Shown piece after piece: positions 1 through 25,561 of a stretch of 25,561 nt of DNA (position 1 is the stretch's first letter; each line of letters begins with the position of its first letter). Origin of the DNA: a virus; the IMG/VR virus record IMGVR_UViG_3300013133_000059, positions 1 to 25,561 of that record, one strand, 5' to 3'. The notes under the pieces are model-generated. The model was not told the DNA's origin and searched no databases. It saw nothing but the letters and a program-made list of their open reading frames with translations. The position numbers were made by a program, and so were the translations under genes.

Positions 1-107
1 CCACCGCGCAAGGGGTCCAGCGTGAGAGGTCGATGTAAGAATTCGCGTAGCGCAAGCTCGATCTTGGCCACGAGGTCCTTAGACGGCCCCGACGGTGCGT
101 CACTCAT
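1..107 (-). CDS. Hypothetical protein G, 3' end outside window
   Basis: The ATG overlaps the stop of gene F as ATGA, the usual coupling in this region. The 35 visible codons have no stop and read MSDAPSGPSKDLVAKIELAL, then an amphipathic helix (REFLHRPLTLDPLRGG). Too little is seen to assign a family or to say whether it is related to genes C and E. Confidence 0.55.
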   Translation of the reverse strand, partial: MSDAPSGPSKDLVAKIELALREFLHRPLTLDPLRG

Positions 108-388
108 GAAGCAGCCCCGATCACCGAAGCGGAAGCGATCACGATCACGCGGAGACCGTGAGGGCCCCGACGCTCGCGCACTGCGATCCCGGGGATCGCC
201 GAGATCCGCCCGCGGAGGGACTTCCGCGACCCCGCATAGTGCGCCCCCCACTTCGACGAGCGCCCCTTGAGGTCTGCGCCCGACCATCGGGCGCGCCCCG
301 CGAGAAGGGCCCGCTGATAGCAGCCGCGGGCGCAAGCGTCGACGCGGGCAAAGTCGGAGGGGAGGAGGTACGAGAGATCGATGTTCAT
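104..388 (-). CDS. Hypothetical protein F (94 residues)
   Basis: The ATG is placed 7 nt after AAAGGAAG in the fourth leader copy. The protein starts MNIDLSYLLPSDFARVDAC and is very basic afterwards (about a quarter Arg/Lys in the middle, such as GRSSKWGAHYAGSRKSLRGR). It ends with a hydrophobic tail (RVIVIASASVIGAAS). The basic character could reflect nucleic-acid binding, but no fold is recognised. Its stop overlaps the next start as ATGA. Confidence 0.6.
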   Translation of the reverse strand: MNIDLSYLLPSDFARVDACARGCYQRALLAGRARWSGADLKGRSSKWGAHYAGSRKSLRGRISAIPGIAVRERRGPHGLRVIVIASASVIGAAS

Positions 389-460
389 GGGGTGGCTTCC
401 TTTCGTCGGGCGGTTCGTCCGCCCATGCCCAGAACCTTAACCCCTACCCTTGACCGAGAT
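389..460 (-). promoter_or_regulatory. Degenerate fourth copy of the promoter/leader, before gene F
   Basis: The leader hairpin GGGCGG/CCGCCC (408-424) and AAAGGAAG (396-403) are intact. Upstream, however, about 6 bp are missing, so only the GGTCAAGG half of the operator remains (448-455). The -35 hexamer is lost, and the -10 position reads TAAGGT. Genes F and G may therefore depend on readthrough from P3 or on a weak promoter. Confidence 0.6.
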
Positions 461-1034
461 CTTTTCTCGCTATCGCACCAAGTTCTGGGAAGTACCCGAA
501 ACCCGCGGGTTTGACGGCGAATTGGTCGAGGACGCCGATCGAGACGGAGTAACCCCGAGCCCCGCCATCGGGGCGGCGAGCGGCCGCGCGGATCGCTCCG
601 CGGACGGGGTCGAGGTACGCGGGGACGCCGAGGTGCGCCACGGCGCGGAGCAGGGGGATCGACACGAGTCCGCGGAGGCCTTCCCACGTATCGATCCACC
701 CGTGGCACTGGCCGGGGTTCGGGGCGTACCCGAGCGGCGGATCGATCGTCTCGTACGCCTCCGCGGACCATGCGGCCGCTAGGCGTTGGGCCCACGTGCG
801 GCCCTCCGCGAGGTCCCACGGGCCGCCGATCCGCCGGCGCATGGCTTGCGCCCGCGGGTCGTCCGGACACGCCTCGAGGACGGTCTCCCGGGCCTCGCGC
901 GTTCGGGCCGCGCGGAGGTCCTTCACCCACCGGGCCGTGGCGTGCCAGTGGTCGATCACGAGCTCGCGTCGACGATACGGGGAGGGCGCGGAGAAGGACG
1001 ACCACTTGATCGGGGGTAGGACGATCTCGATCAC
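444..1034 (-). CDS. Hypothetical protein E, longer paralogue of gene C (196 residues)
   Basis: The GTG start overlaps the stop of gene D as GTGA. The start (MIEIVLPPIKW) and the C-terminal ~90 residues align with gene C (HGWIDTWEGLRGLVSIPLLRAVAHLGVPAYL, KPAGFGYFPELGAIARKD). Between them is an insertion of about 80 residues, charged and helical (RRRELVIDHWHATARWVKDLRAARTREARETVLE, then MRRRIGGPWDLAEGRTWAQRLAAAW). The final LGQG, absent from gene C, comes from a small deletion that removed the ancestral stop. No known family is recognised. Confidence 0.65.
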   Translation of the reverse strand: MIEIVLPPIKWSSFSAPSPYRRRELVIDHWHATARWVKDLRAARTREARETVLEACPDDPRAQAMRRRIGGPWDLAEGRTWAQRLAAAWSAEAYETIDPPLGYAPNPGQCHGWIDTWEGLRGLVSIPLLRAVAHLGVPAYLDPVRGAIRAAARRPDGGARGYSVSIGVLDQFAVKPAGFGYFPELGAIARKDLGQG

Positions 1035-1225
1035 GGCTCACCCCCACCCGCCTCGAGGACGATCCCGAGGTCGCCGAAGGGCCCCGACACCGTGGACCAC
1101 GCCTCTGCTCGTCCGTCGGGGAGGAGCGCGACCGTGCGCGCGTGCGCGTCGTCCTCGACGTAGGTCGTCCCCTCAGGGTAACGCGCGTCGAGAGCAGGGC
1201 GGATCACAGGAAACAATCGGTTCAT
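1031..1225 (-). CDS. Hypothetical protein D (64 residues)
   Basis: The ATG is placed by the P3 leader and ribosome site. The short protein (MNRLFPVIRPALDARYPEG, then TYVEDDAHARTVALLPDGRAEAW) looks like a small beta unit ending DLGIVLEAGGGEP. No family or membrane segment is seen. It occupies the same first-gene position as gene B but is not clearly related to it. The GTGA overlap leads into gene E, so the pair is probably translated together. Confidence 0.62.
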   Translation of the reverse strand: MNRLFPVIRPALDARYPEGTTYVEDDAHARTVALLPDGRAEAWSTVSGPFGDLGIVLEAGGGEP

Positions 1226-1299
1226 TGGGTGGCTTCCTTTCGTCGGGCGGTCCGTCCGCCCACGTCCAGACAATAGTTCCGACGCTTGACCCGGTCAAG
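1226..1299 (-). promoter_or_regulatory. Promoter/operator P3 with structured leader, for genes D and E
   Basis: The minus strand has -35 TTGACC (1293-1298), a 17-bp spacer and -10 TATTGT (1270-1275). The operator-like CTTGACCGGGTCAAG (7+1+7) is at 1285-1299. The leader has GGGCGG/CCGCCC with a 5-nt loop (1245-1261) and AAAGGAAG (1233-1240), 7 nt before the ATG. It is nearly the same as P2. Confidence 0.72.
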
Positions 1300-1651
1300 G
1301 ATCTTTTTTGACTACCGTGCCGATTTCGGGGAAGTGCGCGAAACCCGCTGGCTTTCTCGCGTACCGGGCTTCGGGGTCGACCAGTGCACGGTACCCCCGA
1401 GACCCCCGCACCGCGACGAGTCGAGGCAGGAACCGCCAATAGTCTGCCCAGATCACGACAGGCGGCCGCTCGGGGATCTCGAGGCGCACCGGGACCCCGA
1501 GACGTGCAACAGCAGCGAGCATGGGGCCCGAGATCGTCCCCCGGAGGCCACCCGGGAGGGTGATCCACCCATGATAGTGCGCGTCCTCCGGGCGCTCGGG
1601 GCGGAGTCCCCGAAGCGCTCGGAGGTCGGGGAGTACGACCTCCAAGGTCAC
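1295..1651 (-). CDS. Hypothetical protein C, paralogue of gene E (118 residues)
   Basis: The GTG start overlaps the stop of gene B as GTGA. The protein opens MTLEVVLPDLRAL and shares with gene E: HGWI, GLRG(T/L)(I/V)S, (A/R)AVA(R/H)LGVP, a GxRGY-type turn and KPAGF(A/G)(H/Y)FPE(I/L)G. No outside family is recognised. Its stop codon TGA is part of the -35 hexamer TTGACC of the next promoter, so gene end and promoter are fused. At the 3' end the DNA is about 85% identical over 26 bp to that of gene E, which indicates duplication. Confidence 0.65.
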   Translation of the reverse strand: MTLEVVLPDLRALRGLRPERPEDAHYHGWITLPGGLRGTISGPMLAAVARLGVPVRLEIPERPPVVIWADYWRFLPRLVAVRGSRGYRALVDPEARYARKPAGFAHFPEIGTVVKKDP

Positions 1652-1908
1652 CCCCTCGCCGTTTTCAGTTGGACCTCGAGGGAGAGGTCCGACCAGGAGA
1701 ATGATAGCTCCTCCGGGGTGTAGAGTCCCGTGGTCCCCTCGACGGAGAACAACCCGCCGAACTCGAACCCAGTGATCCTCCGGGGTTGCGGGAGATCCTC
1801 GAGATCGATCCCCGCACGTTGAAGGCCGCAGAGATACTCACAGGACCAGCGAACGTCGCAACCGACGCAGTCAGCAAGGATAGAGGCGGAGATCTTCGAG
1901 CAGCTCAT
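1648..1908 (-). CDS. Hypothetical protein B, cysteine-rich (86 residues)
   Basis: The ATG follows the leader of P2 with a good ribosome site. The first 30 residues contain five cysteines. The main cluster is C-V-G-C-x5-C-x3-C (residues 14-27), a possible zinc-binding site or disulphide group. The remainder is strand-rich (ITGFEFGGLFSVEGTTGLY, FSWSDLSLEVQLKT). No family is recognised. Its N-terminal frame is open upstream to a GTG at 2082, so a longer form is formally possible. The stop overlaps the start of gene C as GTGA. Confidence 0.65.
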   Translation of the reverse strand: MSCSKISASILADCVGCDVRWSCEYLCGLQRAGIDLEDLPQPRRITGFEFGGLFSVEGTTGLYTPEELSFSWSDLSLEVQLKTARG

Positions 1909-1984
1909 GGGGTGGCTTCCTTTCGGGGGGCGGTTCGTTCCGCCCATGTCCAGACAATAGTTCCGACCCTTGACCGGGTCAAGG
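1909..1984 (-). promoter_or_regulatory. Promoter/operator P2 with structured leader, for genes B and C
   Basis: The minus strand has -35 TTGACC (1977-1982), a 17-bp spacer and -10 TATTGT (1954-1959). The palindrome CCTTGACCCGGTCAAGG (8+1+8, 1968-1984) covers the -35 box, as an operator would. Downstream are a GGGCGG/CCGCCC hairpin with a 6-nt loop (1928-1945) and the ribosome site AAAGGAAG (1916-1923), 7 nt before the ATG of gene B. The same arrangement recurs at 1226-1299 and, degenerate, at 389-460. Confidence 0.72.
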
Positions 1985-2082
1985 ATCTTTTTCGCGTCCC
2001 TGCTCTTTTTTCTTTCGGCCCATGCCCGCCTTCGATGGCGCCAACGATCGAAGTCCGTAGAAAAGTCTTCGGAATGGTTCAC
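1979..2082 (-). CDS. Possible small gene A2, GTGA-coupled, frame uncertain
   Basis: GTG overlaps the stop of gene A. Read straight, the frame runs on through the next promoter and leader into gene B (1648-2082, 144 residues, beginning MNHSEDFSTDFDRWRHRRR). The canonical slippery heptamer A AAA AAG (2005-2011) is phased correctly in this frame. A -1 slip there would end the protein at REKDP-stop inside the next operator (1979), the same place and similar residues where gene C ends. It may be a separate 34-residue frameshift product, a longer form of B, or no gene. Confidence 0.35.
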
Positions 2083-2468
2083 AAAGCCACCTCCCCCGGC
2101 TCGCCGAACTGCTCGACGATCTCCGCGCGGACGGGGTGATCCGTGGGGATCGTCCCGTCCGTGAGGCGGAGCCAGACGAGGCGGGTCGTTGCGACGGTGT
2201 CCCCAGTGAGGGCGCACTCATCGTCAGCACAGTCCCGGAAGCGGATCGCGAGGGTAGCTACGGCAACGGGCCCGACGGGTCCACGCCCACCAAGGCGGGG
2301 GACCGCCGAGGCAAACTCGATCGCGTTCGCGAAGTCGAGCGCCAACTGAGCATGGAAGCGGAGATTCTCGAGGGCGGGGACGCGAACCTTCGGCGGGACT
2401 GCGCTGAGCGGCGCTCGGATGGACTGGATCTGCGAGGTGAGGTTCTCGAGGGTGGCTTTGATCGTCAT
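2079..2468 (-). CDS. Hypothetical protein A (129 residues)
   Basis: This is the first gene of the left module. The N-terminal half is helical and amphipathic (ATLENLTSQIQSIRAPLSAVPPKVRVPALENLRFHAQLALDF), suggesting a coiled or oligomeric part. A Pro/Gly-rich turn follows, then strands (VATLAIRFRDCADDECALTG, TRLVWLRLTDGTIP). I recognise no family. The ATG lies only 6 nt from the -10-like TATCAT of P1 with no upstream ribosome site, in keeping with a leaderless message. Its stop overlaps a GTG as GTGA, starting a second frame. Confidence 0.65.
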   Translation of the reverse strand: MTIKATLENLTSQIQSIRAPLSAVPPKVRVPALENLRFHAQLALDFANAIEFASAVPRLGGRGPVGPVAVATLAIRFRDCADDECALTGDTVATTRLVWLRLTDGTIPTDHPVRAEIVEQFGEPGEVAL

Positions 2469-2474
2469 GCCCCC

Positions 2475-2506
2475 ATGATATGACTCCCCTTGACCGCGTC
2501 AAGGGG
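2475..2506 (-). promoter_or_regulatory. Palindromic operator/promoter P1 (possible leaderless start)
   Basis: A 9+3+9 palindrome (CCCCTTGAC, GCG, GTCAAGGGG on the minus strand, 2486-2506) overlaps a -35 box TTGACG (2497-2502). A -10-like TATCAT lies at 2475-2480, with a 16-bp spacer. The predicted start is at or next to the ATG at 2468, so the message would be leaderless. The palindrome also follows the fibre stop closely and may end the structural transcript. Confidence 0.6.
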
Positions 2507-2509
2507 TTT

Positions 2510-3733
2510 CTACCTACCGAGGCGGATCGCCTCCGCGAGCTGGCAGACCCCCGCGGCCCGGTATCGTCCCGCGAGAAAACGGTTGCCCGCGAGGACGATT
2601 CGTCGGATCACGCCCACGGGGGCGGAGGTAATCCGCCGCGTGGGGTCTACACACGAAGTCCACGTGACCCCCGCGTCGCTCGAGATCAGGAGGCGCGGAG
2701 CGTGCGAGACACCCGCGACGATCGTCGCCCCGCGGACCGCGGAGCACCCGGGGGTGAACTGGACGTCGGGGAGATCGGCGACCTCCACCCACGCGGAGAA
2801 AGGGTCCTGGACTGTCCACACCTTCGCGCCGCCTCCGACCTCGTCCCCGCCGACCACGAACACTGAGTTTTCCTCGTCCCACACGACCCACCGGTACTCA
2901 TACCCTCCGGGGAGTCCGCCGGACGGCGCCGAGGCGGTCAACGCACCCGAGAGGTTCCCCCAGACGTGGGCGTGCACGGTCCCGATCGCAAGGCCGTGAT
3001 TCGGGGACCTCGCGATCATGGTGATCGCCTCGGTCACGCCTCCGCGCGTGAGGGTCGTAACCGTCGCGGTGTCGATGTCGCCCGGATCAGAGTCGTCGAT
3101 CACCCACACGCGAGGCTGCGTCAGGGTCGTCTGAAGTCCGCCCACGTAGATCTCTTGCCTCGAGTCCGACACCGCGAGACACGTTACGGTGTCCGCGCCC
3201 GCGAGAACGAGGCGCGTCCAGGTAGACGCGGACCCCGTCCCGTACCCGTAGACAGATTTGGACCCTCCCGCCGTACCGAGCACCGCGCACGAGCTCGATC
3301 GGTGCGTCGCAGCGACGAGGACCTCACCACCCAAGGTCGAGGCCTCGACGGTCCACGTTACCCCGTCCGTGCTCGTCCAGATCTGTCCGCTGCTGTTGCC
3401 CGCGAGGACGAAGGGATTCGGCCCGCCAACCGCGTCCCACCCCCGCCACGCGAGGCCCGCGAGGCCGTTCACGCCGCCGAAGGTGACCTCGTAAGGGGTT
3501 GTCCAGTTGCTTGCCTCCGCGAGGTCGAGGAATTGGAGGTACCTCCGGATCTCCCACTCGGCGAAGTTCGCATGCTGCGGGTTCGGCGGGGTGTTCGGCA
3601 CGTGTCCCGCCGAGAAAACGCCGTCCGCGGGGCGGACCTTCGTGGGCTCCCCCGCCCACGGATCAGGGCCCGCGGGGTAGAGATCGTCGGACGCGAGGAG
3701 ACGGAGCGAACCACTAGGACGTGAGGCAGTCAT
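2510..3733 (-). CDS. Asp-box (BNR-like) tail fibre or spike
   Basis: This 407-residue protein, the last of the structural run, probably contacts the host surface. Two Asp-box motifs, S-T-D-G-V-T-W at residues 121-127 and S-S-D-A-G-V-T-W at 351-358, plus repeated strands (IWTSTDG, VWVIDDSD, VWTVQDPF, LLISSDAG) indicate a beta-propeller as in sialidases and related sensors. Such propellers need not be enzymes. The N-terminal ~75 residues (SDDLYPAGPDPWAG, PPNPQHANFAEWEIRRYLQFLD) look like a virion-attachment part. It ends within 4 bp of a 21-bp palindrome. Enzymatic activity is not indicated. Confidence 0.78.
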   Translation of the reverse strand: MTASRPSGSLRLLASDDLYPAGPDPWAGEPTKVRPADGVFSAGHVPNTPPNPQHANFAEWEIRRYLQFLDLAEASNWTTPYEVTFGGVNGLAGLAWRGWDAVGGPNPFVLAGNSSGQIWTSTDGVTWTVEASTLGGEVLVAATHRSSSCAVLGTAGGSKSVYGYGTGSASTWTRLVLAGADTVTCLAVSDSRQEIYVGGLQTTLTQPRVWVIDDSDPGDIDTATVTTLTRGGVTEAITMIARSPNHGLAIGTVHAHVWGNLSGALTASAPSGGLPGGYEYRWVVWDEENSVFVVGGDEVGGGAKVWTVQDPFSAWVEVADLPDVQFTPGCSAVRGATIVAGVSHAPRLLISSDAGVTWTSCVDPTRRITSAPVGVIRRIVLAGNRFLAGRYRAAGVCQLAEAIRLGR

Positions 3734-3745
3734 CGCGTGAGCCTA

Positions 3746-4294
3746 TCACGCCTCGAATCCCGCCGCCCACACTCCGCCGCCCGACCCCGCCCACGACCAT
3801 CCGGGACCCGTCGACCACGTGAACACGTCGGGGCCTACCCCGAGGGTCAACGTCGTTGCGATCGCGTTACCGCGCGCGATCCTCATGTTTCCGACGACGC
3901 CCGAGAGATCTTCGATCGCGAGGTCAACGGCCCAGATCACCAGCGCCGCAGGGGGGTATTCGTCGAGGTGCCAGACGATCGGCGCGGGGACGCCGATCTC
4001 GAGGACCTCCCGAAGGTCCGAGATCCGTCCCTGCGATCGGTACGCGCGCCCGCGAGCTCGGAGCGCGACGCGATACGCCGCATCGGATCGACCGTCCCGC
4101 CCGAGGTGGAGCAGCGCACCGATCCGATCGAGGCCCACCCCGATCGAGGCGTCGGGGTCGAGGACGACCTCTCCGATCTCGCGGAGGGCGTCCGACATCC
4201 GCCCCGCTTGACGAACCCACGAGGTGAGGATCGCGACGGTCCGAGGGCGGCGGAACTCGTACGGGAGGAGCCTCTCCGTTGCGTGCGCAATCAT
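3746..4294 (-). CDS. DUF2612-like tail/baseplate protein
   Basis: The 182-residue protein is taken from the ATG in the ATGA overlap with the repeat-protein stop; an ATG 18 bp upstream is also in frame. The diagnostic central region is IGVGLDRIGALLHLGRDGRSDAAYRVALRARGRAYRSQGRISDLREVLE, which matches the DUF2612/tail-protein-I pattern: (L/G)D-x-I-G-x-L, R-x-G-x-x-D-x-x-Y-R, x-S-x-G-x-x-x-x-L. In other phages such proteins link baseplate to fibre. The C-terminal WSTGPGWSWAGSGGGVW strands may bind the fibre. The next gene starts 12 bp later. Confidence 0.78.
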   Translation of the reverse strand: MIAHATERLLPYEFRRPRTVAILTSWVRQAGRMSDALREIGEVVLDPDASIGVGLDRIGALLHLGRDGRSDAAYRVALRARGRAYRSQGRISDLREVLEIGVPAPIVWHLDEYPPAALVIWAVDLAIEDLSGVVGNMRIARGNAIATTLTLGVGPDVFTWSTGPGWSWAGSGGGVWAAGFEA

Positions 4295-5121
4295 GGTCGA
4301 TTCGTCGGACATCCCCAGATCTCTAGCACGACCGCGACACCCTCGACGGACGATCGAACACCCTCTCCGGTGACGTCCGCGACGACGTCCGCCGACCTCG
4401 CGACGGACACCCCTGAGGCGTCACCTGTGACGTCGCGGACGGCGTCCGGTCCGAGGACCCACCCGAGGGCCCACCCGTCCGCCTCGACCTCGAGGAGGCC
4501 CACCCCCGCGCCCGTGGCGGGGCCCGAGGTCGCGGAGGCGTCGGGGTTGATCGTGGCGTGCCACGTCCACCCGGGACCCGACGTCGAGGCCCTACCGTCG
4601 ACGACCTCGAGGGCGTCCGCGAGAGGCCCTAGCGCACCCCCGCCGCCGGCACCGAGGGGCCGCGAGGCGACGGACGACCCCGAGGCACCCCCCGCCGACG
4701 TCGACGCATCAGCGGCCGCCCGGGGCGCCATGGCGAGGGCCCACGCGTCCGTGGTCGTGACGGCCTCTCGCGCAAGGCCCGTCGACGTCGCGACGGGACC
4801 CTGTCCCGAACCCGCCGCGCGTCCGTCCACCTCGAGGCCCGTCGACGTCGCCCGAGGTGTCGCCGAACCCGCCGCGCGCCCGTCCGCCTCGAGGCCCGTC
4901 GCGAAGGTCCCGCGAGATCCCGCGCCCGCCGCGCGTCCGTCCGCCGAGGACCCCACCGCGCGCACCGCGATCAGCCCGAGGGCCCACGCGTCGATCGTCC
5001 CGCCGGGTGCGGGGTCGGGGTCGAAGAGTTCCGCGTCGAGGAGGAGGTGAACCCGATCGCCCCTTCTCTCCGGGTAGAGGTCCGACGTTAGAAACGGCCC
5101 CTCGATCGAGCGGTAGATCAC
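4291..5121 (-). CDS. Repeat-containing distal tail protein, Ala/Gly-rich
   Basis: The 276-residue protein is not of a recognised family. The first ~48 residues form a compact region (MIYRSIEGPFLTSDLYPERR, VHLLLDAELFDP). It then has three near-identical units of the type TGLEVDGRAAGSG (periods of 20 and 19 residues). Related forms (DALEVVDGRAS, LLEVEADGWALG) come later, and a DAWAL motif occurs twice (TIDAWALGL, TTDAWALAM). The C-terminus has V-T-G-(D/E) units. Compositionally it is Ala, Gly, Ser, Thr and Asp rich with almost no Lys, Asn or Cys. It lies among fibre genes, so a fibre shaft or adhesin is most likely. GTG is the start; the weak GGTGA upstream supports it. Confidence 0.65.
   Translation of the reverse strand: MIYRSIEGPFLTSDLYPERRGDRVHLLLDAELFDPDPAPGGTIDAWALGLIAVRAVGSSADGRAAGAGSRGTFATGLEADGRAAGSATPRATSTGLEVDGRAAGSGQGPVATSTGLAREAVTTTDAWALAMAPRAAADASTSAGGASGSSVASRPLGAGGGGALGPLADALEVVDGRASTSGPGWTWHATINPDASATSGPATGAGVGLLEVEADGWALGWVLGPDAVRDVTGDASGVSVARSADVVADVTGEGVRSSVEGVAVVLEIWGCPTNRP
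4774..4940 (-). repeat. About 60-bp tandem repeats in the tail repeat gene
   Basis: The segment aggcccgtcg occurs at 4775, 4835 and 4892 (periods 60 and 57 bp). A linked segment near cccgccgcgcg occurs at 4811, 4868 and 4926. Copy 3 lacks the gacgtc part. Periods are multiples of three, so repeat-number change keeps the frame. Confidence 0.75.
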
Positions 5122-15049: not shown

Positions 15050-15450
15050 AGAAGGACCGCCTGGAGTACGCCCGTCGCGTTGAACGTCCACACGCGATCG
15101 GTGATCTTCGATCCGATCGTGACCTCCGCTTCTTGTGCGATCGTCGCCTCGCCGATGAACTTTTCCGTCTGCGAGTCGACGACAAGCGGGAGCTTGACGA
15201 GGCCCGCCTTTTTGATCGTCGAGAGGACGACGTTCATCGTGGACCCCTGCAAGAGGGTGAGCTCGATCGTGTAGTCCTTCGCGTTGCCGGGCAGGGCGCA
15301 GTGGACGGAGGTGTCCCCGATCACGTCCGTTACGACCTCGGAGAGAGGACCTCGAGGCGTGATCTTGACCCACCCACCTTCGCCCGCCTCTTGCGAGATC
15401 GTGCCGAAGAAAAAGGAGGACTTCCGGAGATCGTAGGTTTTCGTGCTCAT
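15046..15450 (-). CDS. Tail tube protein, DUF3277 family
   Basis: The product has 134 residues, a normal length for a tube subunit. It matches DUF3277: YDLRKSSFFFGTIS near the start, ITPRGPLSEVVTDVIGD, then LQGSTMNVVLSTIKKA and DSQTEKFIGEATIAQEAEVTIG, ending with the short strand VWTFNATGVLQ. Stacked rings of this protein form the inner tube inside the sheath. It is ATGA-coupled to the sheath gene and GTGA-coupled to the chaperone gene. Confidence 0.88.
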   Translation of the reverse strand: MSTKTYDLRKSSFFFGTISQEAGEGGWVKITPRGPLSEVVTDVIGDTSVHCALPGNAKDYTIELTLLQGSTMNVVLSTIKKAGLVKLPLVVDSQTEKFIGEATIAQEAEVTIGSKITDRVWTFNATGVLQAVLL

Positions 15451-16838
15451 ACGCTGATCGTCCCTTCAATGAAGGCCTTGTGAATCGCGCCCGCGAAGCG
15501 CGCACGGAAGCGGAGGTTCCGCAGCTCACGGTTCGCGCGGTCAGCCGTCGAGGTCTCCGCGATCGAGAGCGGGATCACCGTCGGGCCCTCCGAGATCGGG
15601 TTCCCCTGATCGTCGAACTCCGCCGCGGCGAGCGATCGCGCTTGCGTCGGGGTCGAGGTCTCCGCGTCGAGGACCTGTTGGACGACCGCCGTGATCACGT
15701 TGATCCCGATCTGGCTGAACGGGATCTTCGGGTTGTTCTTCTCGAGGCGGAAGATCGCCTCTTGGATCCGCGCCGCGATCAAGTCGCTCGAGATCCGGAG
15801 GTCGATGAACTCTCCGTTCGGGAGCTTGCCCTCGAACGTGTAGGGGGTCTGTCGCGCGCTCGTGTAGTACGTCGCGCGCTTCGCTCGTAGTGCGGCAACT
15901 TGCCCGCTCGTGAGGTTGTCCGCGACGATCCCCGTGAGTGTCTTGTAGGCCGCGGTCGAAGTTCCGGGGCCGTAGCTGAGGACCGTTGCGAGCATCGCAG
16001 CGTCGCGCATGTCGCCCGAGTCCGACGCGGCGAAAAGTACGAACCCGCAATCGTGCGCCAGCGGGATCAGATCGCTCGCGAGATCGTTCGACACCGCGCC
16101 GTCAGCGACCTCGGAGTTACACGAGCGGACCACCGCAACGCGGCCGTTCGCTTGGCACCAAGCGAGCAGGGCTTTCGCGCTCGCCTCCCCGACGATGTCC
16201 AGGGAGACGCCGTAGAACTCGGCGGCGAAACCCCCCTCCTCCGCCGCGGTGCCGATCGCGGCTAGGTCCGTAGCGAGACCGGGATCCGTAGTGGTCTCCT
16301 CGACGCGGAGCTGAGACGCGGGAGGAAGCTCGCGGAGGCGGAAGAACGTCCCCGCTGCGCCCGTCACGGTGATCACTCCGAGGGCCGCGGCAGCGGTGAT
16401 GTCGACCAGCGGATCGATCAGCGCCGCGATCGCGGTGGCCTCCGCGGCCACGGAGGACGCCGCCGGGACGACGCGCTCGATCTCCGTCGCAAGCCCGTCC
16501 TTGTCGACCACGGTGAAGCGGTAGACGTGACCCTCGACCGCCGTCAGGGGCGAGAGGCGGATCACCATCGTCGGGGGGAGGTTCCGCCGACCGATCACGA
16601 TCCGTTCAGGCTTGCGCGGGAGGGACCGGATCGCGTTCACCGCGATCGCGATCGGGTGCGCGGCGGGGACCCCTAGCGCGGTGATCTCCGAAGCGGCCGT
16701 AGCCGTCGAGAACGTCCGCAAGCGTTCGGGCCAAAACGCGTGGGACGCGAGGAACATCGGCGTACCGAACCCGAGAGCCGTTGGGCTCGCCGTCTGGCGG
16801 GTGATGTTGACCGAAAAAACCGTGTCGAGATCGCTCAT
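15447..16838 (-). CDS. Contractile tail sheath protein, DUF3383 family
   Basis: The sheath subunit contracts to drive the tube through the cell envelope. At 463 residues it shows the DUF3383 layout: an N-terminal VFSVNITRQTASPTALGFG handle strand, a domain with FYGVSLDIVGEASAKALLAWCQAN, a central SYGPGTSTAAYKTLTGIVADNLT segment (compare the usual A-x-K-x-L-x-G motif), and a C-terminal core ending GAIHKAFIEGTISV, the strand that completes the neighbouring subunit's handshake in sheath polymers. Its presence defines the phage as myovirus-type. It overlaps the neck gene by ATGA, and the tube gene likewise. Confidence 0.9.
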   Translation of the reverse strand: MSDLDTVFSVNITRQTASPTALGFGTPMFLASHAFWPERLRTFSTATAASEITALGVPAAHPIAIAVNAIRSLPRKPERIVIGRRNLPPTMVIRLSPLTAVEGHVYRFTVVDKDGLATEIERVVPAASSVAAEATAIAALIDPLVDITAAAALGVITVTGAAGTFFRLRELPPASQLRVEETTTDPGLATDLAAIGTAAEEGGFAAEFYGVSLDIVGEASAKALLAWCQANGRVAVVRSCNSEVADGAVSNDLASDLIPLAHDCGFVLFAASDSGDMRDAAMLATVLSYGPGTSTAAYKTLTGIVADNLTSGQVAALRAKRATYYTSARQTPYTFEGKLPNGEFIDLRISSDLIAARIQEAIFRLEKNNPKIPFSQIGINVITAVVQQVLDAETSTPTQARSLAAAEFDDQGNPISEGPTVIPLSIAETSTADRANRELRNLRFRARFAGAIHKAFIEGTISV

Positions 16839-21915: not shown

Positions 21916-23527
21916 GCCACGCCCCGCGGTAGACGATCGATCCGGTGTCGTCGCGTTCTACGGACCACTCGCGCTCGACACCGCACAAGGGACACCGGTT
22001 CGATCGTCCGTGCGGGCACCGGTCCGCGCCGAGCTCCGACATCCGAGCCGCGAGCGCCGCGGGCGCGGAGATCGCACCCTCCGCTTCTTCGCCTTCAGCA
22101 TCGGCGACCCCGACGGGCGCGCCCGCGGGCGGGGGTGTCTCGGGCCCGGCGGCGGGGACGTCCCCTGCCTCCGCAGCCGCGGCCGTCGCGATCGTCTCCG
22201 CGTTTCTCGCCTTGAATTCCGCGAGCGTGAGATCGTCGTCCGGTGTCCCGAAGGGCGGGAGACCGACGGACGCGCGGGCCTCGCGGACGCGAACAACGGT
22301 CGCGATGTCGCTGGGGGTGATCTCGATCTTGGTGTCGACGCCCGCGGGCAACGGATCGGCGAAGCTCGAAGGGATCGAGGTCGCGATCCCGCGGAGCTCC
22401 GCGACGTCCTCCGGGGTCGTGACACCCGAGGCGATCCGAACCGCGTCCGTGTCCGCCTCGAGCTTCGCGAGGTTCGCGCGCTCGAGATCGGACGGCTCCC
22501 GCATGGAGGGCCACGCGTGATCGATCTCCCCCGCACCGTCAACCTCGAGGAGGCGACGGACGATCGGATCGATCACCTCCGCGCGCCAAGCTGCGACGGT
22601 CTCATCCCACGATCCGCGCGGGGCTTCGCCCGTCGCGTTCAGCCCTCCGGGGGACTCGCCGAAAAGGATCTGAACAGGGATCCCCGTGTCCGCCGACAGG
22701 CGGGACATGACGCGATCGAGGACCTCCGGGATCCCAGCGAACGATGCGGATACGTTCGTGTATGTCTCGCCTTCCTCGAGGAGCATGACGCTCGCCACGG
22801 ACCGCCCGAGGCGGAGGGCCTCCGCGCGCGCCTCGACAAGATCCTTGTCCACCGCGAGAGACTCGAGGAGGTGTTTCATCGTGAGGACACCTTCGCTCGC
22901 GCGTTGCATGAGAGACCCCGAGGCCTTGAACGCTGCGTTCAGATCCGTGAGGGCCTCGTAAACGATCTCGAGAATCGGGACGTCCCACCCGCCGCGAGCG
23001 GCGCGCCCGTCGTCGGTCGCCTCCTCTCCGCGGACGACGATCGCGCGCGACCGGTGCACGACCACCGATCGTCCGTCGCGACGGGTGACGCGGAAGCGCT
23101 CCGCGGTGTCGAGGTCAACAACGCCCTCCGCGGTGACGCGGTCCGCGCCGTACGCGCGGATCCATCGGAGGCCCGGCGCGCCCTCGAGGGGGCCCTCCGC
23201 CCCTCCGTCCGCCGCACCGATCACGATCAACGCACCGCCGAAGATCCTCGCGAGACGCGCCGCCCGCGCGACCTCCCCGAGGAACCCCGCGCGACGCCAT
23301 CGACGATCGAGATCGGACCGACCGGGGAACGTGACCCCGCGCCGCGTCGCGTGCCATGGGTGGGCCTGGACGATCCGCCGCGCGAGTCCGCTCCCGTTAT
23401 ACAGGGACTCGATCAACGTCAACGGGATCGGAGTCGAGGGAACCCATCCCATCGACGCCTGCGCATCGCGGCCCGGGACGTTCAGTCCGTTGACAAGGTT
23501 GGCCCACGCGTCGCTACGTTTTTCCAC
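21899..23527 (-). CDS. Portal protein, DUF1073 type, with C-terminal zinc-ribbon-like tail
   Basis: The portal forms the dodecameric ring at the capsid vertex through which TerL moves DNA. The 542-residue product shows the DUF1073 pattern: an early SLYNGSGLARRIVQAHP segment, then ARLARIFGGALIVIGA, a central helical LRLGRSVASVMLL region, and ADTGIPVQILFGESPGGLNATGE followed by WDETVAAWR. The last ~35 residues contain CPHGRSNRCPLCG, a CxH-x6-CxxC cluster suggesting bound zinc, joined through a Pro/Ala-rich linker. The chosen GTG start overlaps terL by 14 bp and has no clear Shine-Dalgarno, so the exact N-terminus is uncertain. Some DUF1073-related proteins carry an anti-CBASS Acb1 domain, but no HxT/HxS pair is visible here. 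Confidence 0.88.
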   Translation of the reverse strand: MEKRSDAWANLVNGLNVPGRDAQASMGWVPSTPIPLTLIESLYNGSGLARRIVQAHPWHATRRGVTFPGRSDLDRRWRRAGFLGEVARAARLARIFGGALIVIGAADGGAEGPLEGAPGLRWIRAYGADRVTAEGVVDLDTAERFRVTRRDGRSVVVHRSRAIVVRGEEATDDGRAARGGWDVPILEIVYEALTDLNAAFKASGSLMQRASEGVLTMKHLLESLAVDKDLVEARAEALRLGRSVASVMLLEEGETYTNVSASFAGIPEVLDRVMSRLSADTGIPVQILFGESPGGLNATGEAPRGSWDETVAAWRAEVIDPIVRRLLEVDGAGEIDHAWPSMREPSDLERANLAKLEADTDAVRIASGVTTPEDVAELRGIATSIPSSFADPLPAGVDTKIEITPSDIATVVRVREARASVGLPPFGTPDDDLTLAEFKARNAETIATAAAAEAGDVPAAGPETPPPAGAPVGVADAEGEEAEGAISAPAALAARMSELGADRCPHGRSNRCPLCGVEREWSVERDDTGSIVYRGAWRATSA

Positions 23528-24923
23528 CGCGCAAGATTGCCATGAGTCGGGCCGCGTAACCAGCGCCGCGCGAGAGGTACCGCAACGCTTGGGACATCGC
23601 GTCGATCTCGTCGTCGCGATCCATTCGGGGGAACTTCGGCCACTCGCGACGGATCCGCGCAACGTGGGGACCGTCGACAACATGCACGCGCCCCGCGCGC
23701 CAGAGGGGAGTAACCGCTACGGCGCGAGCTTCTTTCGAACCCTCGGGTGTGACGAGCTCAAGGCCTCCGATCTCCGCGCGGAGGACGTCCTCGCACGCGG
23801 GCCCGTTTGCCGCGTCCTCGATCAGCACTCGCGACGAGGGCCACGCGGACCGGTGCGCGACGATCTCCGCGATCGTCTCGACGAAGGAGGCCCGACGAAA
23901 CACCGTGTCCAACAGGTAAAACTGGTCGTCCCGCGTGCGTGCCCACCACTGCCCCGCGATCCAGTCGGAAGCGTCGCGACCCTTGAACGTGAGATCCCAC
24001 GACTGGATGAAGGTCGCGTCTCGGGGGACGACCTCGCGGGGGACGACGTCGATCCACTCGGGGAGGATCGCGCCCGACCCTTGGACGACGGGGCGTTGCT
24101 GATACTGCGCTTCCCACGTCCCGAGCAACCTCATGCCTTCCTCGAGGGTCGCGACGGCGTCCGGAGGGAAGCGCGCGGGGAAGAGGATCTCGCCATCCTC
24201 CCCGCGCGTGTCGAGGGTCGAGGTCTCCGCGTCCCGCACCGCGCGCATGGGGAACGCGTGGCGGGCCCACCCCGCCTCGATCGCTCGATCGAAGGGGTCG
24301 CCGATCGCGAGGCGTTGGCCGATCAGGAGACGGCCGAAGGTCGCGGGATCGATCGTGCGATTGCTGAACGCCGTGGAGATCGACTGCCACGCGAATTCGA
24401 GTTCCCCCGGGGAACGGATCACGTCCTGAGCTTTGTTCGGATCGTCGACGATCAGCGTGTGAGCATGCCACCCGGTGACGGCTCCGCGGATCGATGTCGA
24501 GAGACGTCCGCCACCCCCGCGGAGCTCGAAGTTGCCCACCGCGACGGGCCCGGGGCGGAGGACGTCCCCGAAGGTCTCGCGGTACCACCGAGACCTAAGG
24601 AGCCCGAGGAGGATCTCCGCGTCACGGTGGAGCAACGCGGAGTCGTAAGACGCGTAAATGAAGCGGTGCGACGGGTCGATCGTCCACACCCACGCGGGAA
24701 AGAGGACGCCGGAAAAGAGACTCTTCCCCGTCGCGGGCGGGACGTTGATCACGAGGTCCCGCGGGTCCCTTCGGCGGAAGGCCTCGAGGAGATCGCACAA
24801 GGTTGCGAGGTGCCAATTCGGACGGAACGAGGAACCGCCCGGGACCTCGAGGTGGGGCCACGCGAGGCGAGCGAAGCGGTACAACGATCGGGACAGATCG
24901 CGCGTAACGTCTCGCGGGGTCAT
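23514..24923 (-). CDS. terL: Terminase large subunit (TerL)
   Basis: The packaging motor ATPase and headful nuclease cuts concatemeric DNA and pumps it through the portal. The 469-residue protein has a Walker A-like loop VPPATGKSL at about residues 61-69 and a Walker B strand LIVDDP at about 157-162. The C-terminal RNase H-type nuclease motifs are SWD (D310), LIEDAAN (D370) and DDEID (around D441). The start is the ATG that overlaps the methylase stop as ATGA; a longer open frame upstream lies inside the methylase gene and was not used. Length fits the family. No small terminase is seen, so it is either upstream of the window or too divergent to recognise. The stop overlaps the portal gene by 14 bp. 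Confidence 0.95.
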   Translation of the reverse strand: MTPRDVTRDLSRSLYRFARLAWPHLEVPGGSSFRPNWHLATLCDLLEAFRRRDPRDLVINVPPATGKSLFSGVLFPAWVWTIDPSHRFIYASYDSALLHRDAEILLGLLRSRWYRETFGDVLRPGPVAVGNFELRGGGGRLSTSIRGAVTGWHAHTLIVDDPNKAQDVIRSPGELEFAWQSISTAFSNRTIDPATFGRLLIGQRLAIGDPFDRAIEAGWARHAFPMRAVRDAETSTLDTRGEDGEILFPARFPPDAVATLEEGMRLLGTWEAQYQQRPVVQGSGAILPEWIDVVPREVVPRDATFIQSWDLTFKGRDASDWIAGQWWARTRDDQFYLLDTVFRRASFVETIAEIVAHRSAWPSSRVLIEDAANGPACEDVLRAEIGGLELVTPEGSKEARAVAVTPLWRAGRVHVVDGPHVARIRREWPKFPRMDRDDEIDAMSQALRYLSRGAGYAARLMAILRGGKT

Positions 24924-25561
24924 GGCGTGAGACAGTGCGGCGAGAGCCACAGGCGTTCGCGTTTCTGGTTCGTGCCGCCGGTCCCCTGGTTCGCCATTCC
25001 GCCGCGCAAGAACCCGCCGGCGTACCACTCAACCTCTCGCCACCCGTGCTCTGTCACGAGCGATTCATGCCCCTCGCCGGCGAACCCTGCGAGCACGATC
25101 CGATACCGCTCGTCACCGCCCTTCTCCGCGCACCACGCGCGCACGTCCGCCGCAACGTCGTGGTCGTCGTGCGCGTAGAGGTCCTTAGCTCTCGCCTCGC
25201 CCGAATAGGGCGGATCCAAAAACACACCCGCGGGGCTCTTGCCCTGCCTCACCGGGAGCGTGAGAGCCGCGCCATCGGTGCACGCTCGCGACCAATCACC
25301 ATGGAGGATCCGCACGTGCCGGAGCCTCGCGCCGAGGAACGCGAGCCACCGGACGAGCTCGGGCATCGTCATGGGGTGGTAGGGCTCACCTACGCCCGGC
25401 TCGCCCTTGCCGTCGTCGCTTAGGTGCGGGAGTTGCCGCGACACGCCCGGCTCGCGCAATTGCGGCCGGTTCACGCCTATGCCGTCGTCGCCTAGGTGCG
25501 GGCGCTGCCGCTTCACGCCCGCGCCCGACGAACCACGAGCGCGACGGTAGAAGACCCCGTC
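24920..25561 (-). CDS. DNA adenine-type methylase, 5' end outside window
   Basis: The reading frame is open to the window edge, so the N-terminal part, which should carry the SAM-binding motif, is missing. The visible part has the catalytic motif IV, FLDPPYS, followed by a region with DERYRIVLAGFAGEGHE and a C-terminal WYAGGFLRGG segment. This resembles phage-encoded D12/Dam-like N6-adenine methylases. The presumed role is methylation of phage DNA, for example against host restriction; the target sequence is unknown. Before the catalytic motif is an imperfect 24-residue duplication (KRQRPHLGDDGIG and SRQLPHLSDDGKG) matched by a 72-bp DNA repeat. The stop overlaps the terminase start as ATGA. 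Methylase class is fairly secure from DPPY; adenine rather than cytosine-N4 specificity is inferred from family resemblance. Confidence 0.8.
   Translation of the reverse strand, partial: DGVFYRRARGSSGAGVKRQRPHLGDDGIGVNRPQLREPGVSRQLPHLSDDGKGEPGVGEPYHPMTMPELVRWLAFLGARLRHVRILHGDWSRACTDGAALTLPVRQGKSPAGVFLDPPYSGEARAKDLYAHDDHDVAADVRAWCAEKGGDERYRIVLAGFAGEGHESLVTEHGWREVEWYAGGFLRGGMANQGTGGTNQKRERLWLSPHCLTP
25409..25520 (-). repeat. Imperfect 40-bp direct repeat inside the methylase gene
   Basis: Two 40-bp segments, 25409-25448 and 25481-25520, start 72 bp apart and differ at about five positions. Both begin gccgtcgtcg and contain taggtgcggg. The spacing is exactly 24 codons, so the protein carries the same duplication in frame. 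Confidence 0.75.

Follow-up and report, generated by a model that had tools for sequence, protein, structure and literature searches.

The window analysed here, the entire 25,561-base IMG/VR record IMGVR_UViG_3300013133_000059, is a genome fragment of an uncultured contractile-tail phage that is distant from all cultured phages. This phage has a 68% GC content and nearly all of its genes on the minus strand, and positions 1-2507 form a small-gene tail located downstream of the late operon. The small operons of this region stand behind a repeated regulatory cassette, in which a palindromic operator overlaps the core of a sigma70-type promoter. A sister phage carries the same layout with a different palindrome, and together the two phages point to a phage-wide operator regulon that is likely to be governed by one dedicated DNA-binding protein, probably a repressor.

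A search for the exact dyad CTTGAC-NNN-GTCAAG identified three copies, at 1285-1299, 1969-1983 and 2489-2503, and no others in the window, versus a chance expectation of 0.00 over 100 shuffles of the window. Promoter-like sites, searched in positions 1-5000, also numbered three (0.2 expected by chance), each with its -35 box within a dyad. All three promoters are of the sigma70 type, with the -10 box at 16-17 nt, and each lies just ahead of a gene on the minus strand; the dyad supplies the -35 box of its promoter. The dyads, with 11-bp arms and a 1-bp centre (11-1-11), their promoters and a remnant of the same operator are listed below by unit, each unit being designated by its first gene (A, B, D or F).

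2485..2507, minus strand: operator dyad of unit F (ACCCCTTGACGCGGTCAAGGGGA), holding the -35 box TTGACG, with 9 of 11 arm positions paired
2475..2502, minus strand: promoter of F, TTGACG-16-TATCAT, with an ATG exactly 6 nt past the -10 and an mRNA predicted to be leaderless
1965..1987, minus strand: operator dyad of unit D (GATCCTTGACCCGGTCAAGGGTC), with 10 of 11 arm positions paired
1954..1982, minus strand: promoter of D, TTGACC-17-TATTGT, from the promoter-like site search
1281..1303, minus strand: operator dyad of unit B (GATCCTTGACCGGGTCAAGCGTC), from the exact dyad search
1270..1298, minus strand: promoter of B, TTGACC-17-TATTGT, from the promoter-like site search
447..461, minus strand: operator remnant of unit A (GATCTCGGTCAAGGG), with its left half and -35 deleted

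A leader hairpin and a ribosome site are common to the intact units D and B and the decayed unit A, as an initial annotation of the sequence had noted.

390..404, minus strand: ribosome-site leader GAAAGGAAGCCACCC of A
1227..1241, minus strand: ribosome-site leader GAAAGGAAGCCACCC of B
1910..1924, minus strand: ribosome-site leader GAAAGGAAGCCACCC of D
408..424, minus strand: leader hairpin of unit A, retained despite promoter decay
1245..1261, minus strand: leader hairpin of unit B
1928..1945, minus strand: leader hairpin of unit D, beginning a few nt from the predicted 5' end

Between the A-tract and the start codon, the D and B cassettes are identical at 72 of 79 positions, with only background identity outside; the near-identity begins ~8 nt upstream of the dyad and ends at the start codon. 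The repeated segment is the regulatory part only, and its edges are sharp. Unit F combines dyad and promoter without the hairpin or ribosome-site leader, and its cassette has little in common with those of D and B except the dyad and the boxes. The leader hairpins fold better than shuffled sequences (z of -1.7 to -3.6), and between window and sister phage their pairing is preserved through two compensatory changes around a near-constant ACGA loop, a comparison of four sequences only. Given these compensatory changes and the retention of the hairpin after promoter loss, the hairpin probably acts in RNA. The leaders of A (385-426) and B (1222-1263) also contain a 13-codon frame that runs from the predicted 5' end to the gene's own ATG (ATGA overlap), and the two 13-residue peptides are nearly alike. 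We do not claim a leader peptide from the 5'-proximal ATG or GTG of A and B, nor the N-terminal extension that a 5'-proximal start would give to D, as neither is kept in the sister phage.

The sister phage was identified through a terminase search that returned three contigs at 67% identity, belonging to one species (99.9% DNA identity); its contigs are designated G1 (L015/L016) and G3 (L019/L020). The window dyad CTTGAC-N3-GTCAAG is absent from the sister, and the sister dyad is likewise absent from the window. Sister sites consist of CTTGACT followed by a 23-bp dyad, CTTGYAAYGTC-N-GACRTTACA, which runs into the -10; past the -10 comes either 6 nt and an ATG, or a GC hairpin, GAAAGGAACACGAACC and an ATG. 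The dyads of both phages have the 11-1-11 geometry, and in our reading of the dyad comparison their centres would be offset by ~11 bp when measured from the predicted start. The sister copies are located as follows.

G1, 1878-1907 and 3092-3121, minus strand: dyad sites before two genes of the small-gene tail
G3, 147-176, plus strand: dyad site before the L019 183 gene, on the early side, close to its left end
G3, 15104-15133, plus strand: dyad site preceding L019 15140, where the Mom-like/terminase operon begins

These four copies have diverged while retaining both half-sites. Rather than falling at random positions, all three window copies and all four sister copies are each on a promoter with a gene start immediately downstream, and the strong matches to the sister motif (scores 33-38) are all at the promoters. 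Weak matches (scores 14-17) occur at L019 608-630 and 837-859, in an AT-rich non-coding stretch. This stretch (L019:480-1130), which precedes a primase gene and contains partial operator copies, is a possible origin or regulatory hub. Since the sister dyad is also found in front of the packaging operon and of the gene at the left end (early side), the dyad, by analogy, probably serves the whole phage and not just an accessory module. The initial annotation, whose observations are partly confirmed and whose interpretation is partly supported, had envisaged an accessory or early module, a scope that now appears too narrow; co-regulation by a dedicated DNA-binding protein, which it also proposed, is well supported by the placement of the dyads on promoters and by a sister with the same layout and another dyad.

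One promoter class, predicted to give leaderless mRNA, occurs in both phages, represented by F in the window and by two promoters each in G1 and G3; in all of them precisely 6 nt separate the -10 from the ATG. The pattern TTGAC-N16-18-TA-N4-N6-ATG matches twice in the window, twice in G1 and three times in G3 (one match without a dyad), with a shuffle mean of 0.0, and in other phages it is absent or single. Leaderless genes carry TANNNT ~12 bp before the start and are commonest in Actinobacteria and Deinococcus-Thermus (PMC3160421). Such a signature would suit a phage with this base composition; a search of the genome collection for its host gave no relatives.

The sister module also encodes an XRE-type helix-turn-helix (HTH) protein (L015:1294-1563; HTH_3, 1.1e-07), which matches phage transcription-regulator families; the corresponding window position is beyond the contig end. 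A dimeric DNA-binding protein whose specificity changes best accounts for palindromes over promoter cores that share the 11-1-11 shape and differ in sequence between the two phages. We propose that each small operon is driven by a reusable cassette, comprising a host sigma70-type promoter with its core overlapped by the palindromic operator, which would lead either directly to the start codon (leaderless) or to a 5'-terminal RNA hairpin and ribosome site. One phage-encoded dimeric protein, most likely a repressor, would bind all operator copies and block RNA polymerase by covering the -35 in the window phage, or the spacer and -10 in the sister; occlusion is the simplest action, as the promoters appear complete. 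A single switchable regulon would thus take in the small operons and, if the sister is a guide, also those of the early side and of packaging. The hairpin would most likely stabilise the mRNA or aid translation, the second genes of B/C and D/E would be translated by coupling through GTGA, and the cassette would stay together as one unit through exchanges of the genes that follow it. A bolder version, which we put forward only tentatively, has one operator on every major promoter (early, packaging and small-gene) with two output formats (leaderless and hairpin-leadered), and its copies differing together between sisters at constant geometry and promoter, so as to yield a new immunity specificity.

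Several points weigh against a repressor-controlled regulon. The design is carried by only two species, and no regulator gene is visible in the window, where the sequence ends at position 1. In the sister, an F-like promoter (G1 3747-3775) has -35 and -10 boxes but a poor dyad. No integrase was found among the sister proteins scanned, so lysogeny is only a possibility. If the proposed regulon is right, small genes behind the cassettes could be recognised as one regulon by DNA alone, without cultured relatives; the sister pair would allow a compact test of how all operators of one phage come to change together, and the leaderless and leadered classes under one operator would separate transcriptional from translational control within one genome.

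The dyad might instead serve a phage activator, or a timing factor, in turning the promoters on, a reading with which the placement data are also compatible; the sharing of the sister operator by early-side and packaging operons would fit a common timing signal, and the window dyad centre near -29 is compatible with an activator. Nevertheless, near-consensus -35 and -10 boxes at 16-17 nt mean that host sigma70 should read these promoters unaided, and the sister dyad covers the spacer and -10, a typical position for repression, which makes activation rather unlikely. The conserved feature could also be mainly translational, a start-associated sequence to which the promoter is secondary, given that unit A retains hairpin and ribosome site despite its decayed promoter and dyad, as does the sister homologue of A (L015 2548-2835), whose promoter a deletion has shortened. 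The opposite is suggested by F and the sister sites of leaderless type, which have a promoter, and mostly the dyad too, without hairpin or ribosome-site leader, and we regard a primarily translational role as unlikely.

That the palindrome is a by-product of a promoter cassette copied by recombination, a strong -35 with an accidentally symmetric flank read by no protein, appears more doubtful still. CTTGAC does include the -35 itself, and the window cassette copies are close enough to share non-functional sequence, but the F cassette is little like those of D and B outside dyad and boxes and yet has 9 of 11 arm positions paired, and sites of the same kind in the sister hold another palindrome, whose four diverged copies keep both half-sites. 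Terminator-like sites are predicted on the plus strand at 1285-1299 and 1968-1984, where a dyad followed by ATCTTTTT would resemble an intrinsic terminator. All genes here lie on the minus strand, however, the stem is just 6-7 bp, what reads as a T run is the A-tract lying upstream of the -35, and the F dyad lacks such a run, so that termination is highly improbable.

The closest described design is that of the start-associated sequences (SAS) and extended SAS (ESAS) of cluster K mycobacteriophages, repeated segments found before many unrelated small genes, in which a SigA-like promoter with an inverted repeat is followed by a conserved extended ribosome site beside the start codon; the inverted-repeat consensus varies by subcluster and some sites lack one part (Pope 2011, PMC3203893; phage Adephagia, PMC11373665). 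In the cassettes of window and sister, too, small genes follow a sigma70/SigA-like promoter that carries an inverted repeat, and the consensus of the repeat differs from one relative to the other. With SAS/ESAS representing the same kind of design, the suggestion of an undescribed system was too strong. The sequences are nevertheless unrelated: the 13-bp SAS GGGATAGGAGCCC does not stand immediately before the start codons, where the window has GAAAGGAAGCCACCC and the sister GAAAGGAACACGAACC. Further differences are the compact 11-1-11 dyad overlapping the -35 itself, the GC hairpin near the predicted 5' end, the additional presence of the sister dyad on early-side and packaging promoters, and the phage itself, which is contractile-tailed and far from cultured phages. 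Differing in sequence, repeat geometry and hairpin, the system works like known ones without being a member.

The idea of a shared regulon has a parallel in the stoperators of cluster A phages, where one phage repressor acts at many genome sites and the consensus shifts with the repressor, giving heteroimmune relatives; these stoperators are asymmetric, number 20-30 per genome and lie mostly off promoters (PMC6550527). Site consensus also differs between our two relatives, but the sites are few (three in the window, four in the sister), palindromic and all on promoters. Dispersed sites for one regulator are also known from phage P1, where C1 acts at 22 operators over the genome, the sites being asymmetric 17-mers (PMC8546580). 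The present sites differ from these in being palindromes with a leader hairpin cassette. T4-type phages reportedly carry promoter-early stem-loop cassettes (Arbiol, 2010, in Genome Biol Evol) as a portable unit aiding the shuffling of small genes. The combination of promoter and stem-loop as a portable regulatory unit is the likeness here; to our knowledge, the T4-type cassettes include no repressor operator.

The genes behind the cassettes are listed below.

2079..2468, minus strand: gene F, 129 aa, no family match
1984..2082, minus strand: 'G' frame, its GTG overlapping the F stop, open into D; probably not a gene
1648..1908, minus strand: gene D, 86 aa, with a Cys-rich N-terminus (C-x2-C-x5-C); no family match
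1295..1651, minus strand: gene E, 118 aa, paralogue of C, overlapping D through GTGA, its stop inside the next dyad
1031..1225, minus strand: gene B, 64 aa, no family match
444..1034, minus strand: gene C, 196 aa, overlapping B through GTGA, its C-terminal half homologous to E
104..388, minus strand: gene A, 94 aa, with homologues in the sister phage (43-46% identity) and in L022/L023
3..107, minus strand: gene A2, start only, truncated at the contig end; ATGA overlap with A

Four two-gene units, each behind a dyad or its remnant and joined by GTGA or ATGA, had been proposed. The three exact dyads, the A remnant and the junctions of A/A2, B/C and D/E bear this out, unit A+A2 being interrupted by the contig end at position 1, but the F/G pair does not hold. 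The frame that starts with the GTG at 2082 meets no stop ahead of D and continues to 1648, and the stretch of 'G' before the dyad scores -0.16 in coding signal per codon, versus +0.09 to +0.33 for A-F. Lacking both stop and coding signal, 'G' does not support a fourth two-gene unit; either the F unit has a single gene, or 'G' extends D at its N-terminus.

The first-position genes A, B, D and F are mutually unrelated, and C and E are the sole paralogue pair (42% over 100 aa, E 9e-18), a relationship absent from the initial annotation. DNA is conserved across the C/A and E/B junctions (75.7% identity over 136 nt spanning gene end and cassette), which indicates one duplication of a gene end plus cassette; the position of the E stop in the next dyad and of the C end in the A remnant shows that units are packed end to start. 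Growth by duplication of promoter-plus-gene cassettes is therefore upheld for C and E, each followed by a cassette, whereas elsewhere the repeated part is regulatory only and the genes behind it are unrelated.

As anticipated, the module proteins match no recognised family: A-F returned nothing from Pfam, PHROGs, NCBIfam or PADLOC, and an Rfam search gave no match. Searches of cultured phages gave no relatives of A, C or F and only chance-level matches to D and E, and IMG/VR searches gave none with the C/E profile or the baseplate protein. Gene D was considered as a WhiB-like regulator on account of its cysteine run (ADCVGCDVRWSC), but no Whib profile matched at E 10 and the run is a lead only. 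The predicted structure of C is unusable (predicted local distance difference test, pLDDT, 39), and that of A is moderate (pLDDT 72), with helices followed by a beta hairpin; a fold search with the A model gave no significant match, and the best viral matches, HTH proteins at E 0.18, are a weak hint only. A is the only module gene with a detected sister homologue, and the sister protein at the F position has no detectable C/E homology.

The design itself is similarly restricted. Neither the sister promoter-dyad motif nor the window dyad-promoter pattern with TATTGT was found in any other IMG/VR contig. Relaxing the latter to TANNNT gave 10 single matches, which were discarded, as the sites have no leader around them and the contigs no module protein. 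Aeromonas phage 56, with the nearest cultured terminase (35%), does not contain the design. In L022, a phage with a gene A homologue, three consecutive small genes (L022:5930-6970) each stand behind the same leader (CCGAAGGGAGCCGAAAAATG), another start-associated repeat; two of the three encode Ala-rich repetitive proteins.

The late operon was delimited by family scan and orthology, its portal, capsid, baseplate and fibre genes extending down to 2510.

23514-25028, minus strand: terminase
15447-16838, minus strand: sheath

Immediately before the sister terminase gene lies a gene for a Mom-like DNA modification protein (L019:15385-15942, Mom match), and the window has a DPPY-type methylase-like frame in its place. 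Upstream of the fibre region, the window gene at 4291-5121 contains tandem 57-nt repeats with three copies of a 39-nt core. Two adjacent related proteins with Gly/Asp/Tyr repeats are encoded at L015:290-900 (81% DNA identity over 106 nt), one of them almost purely GYGDGDGS-type repeat.

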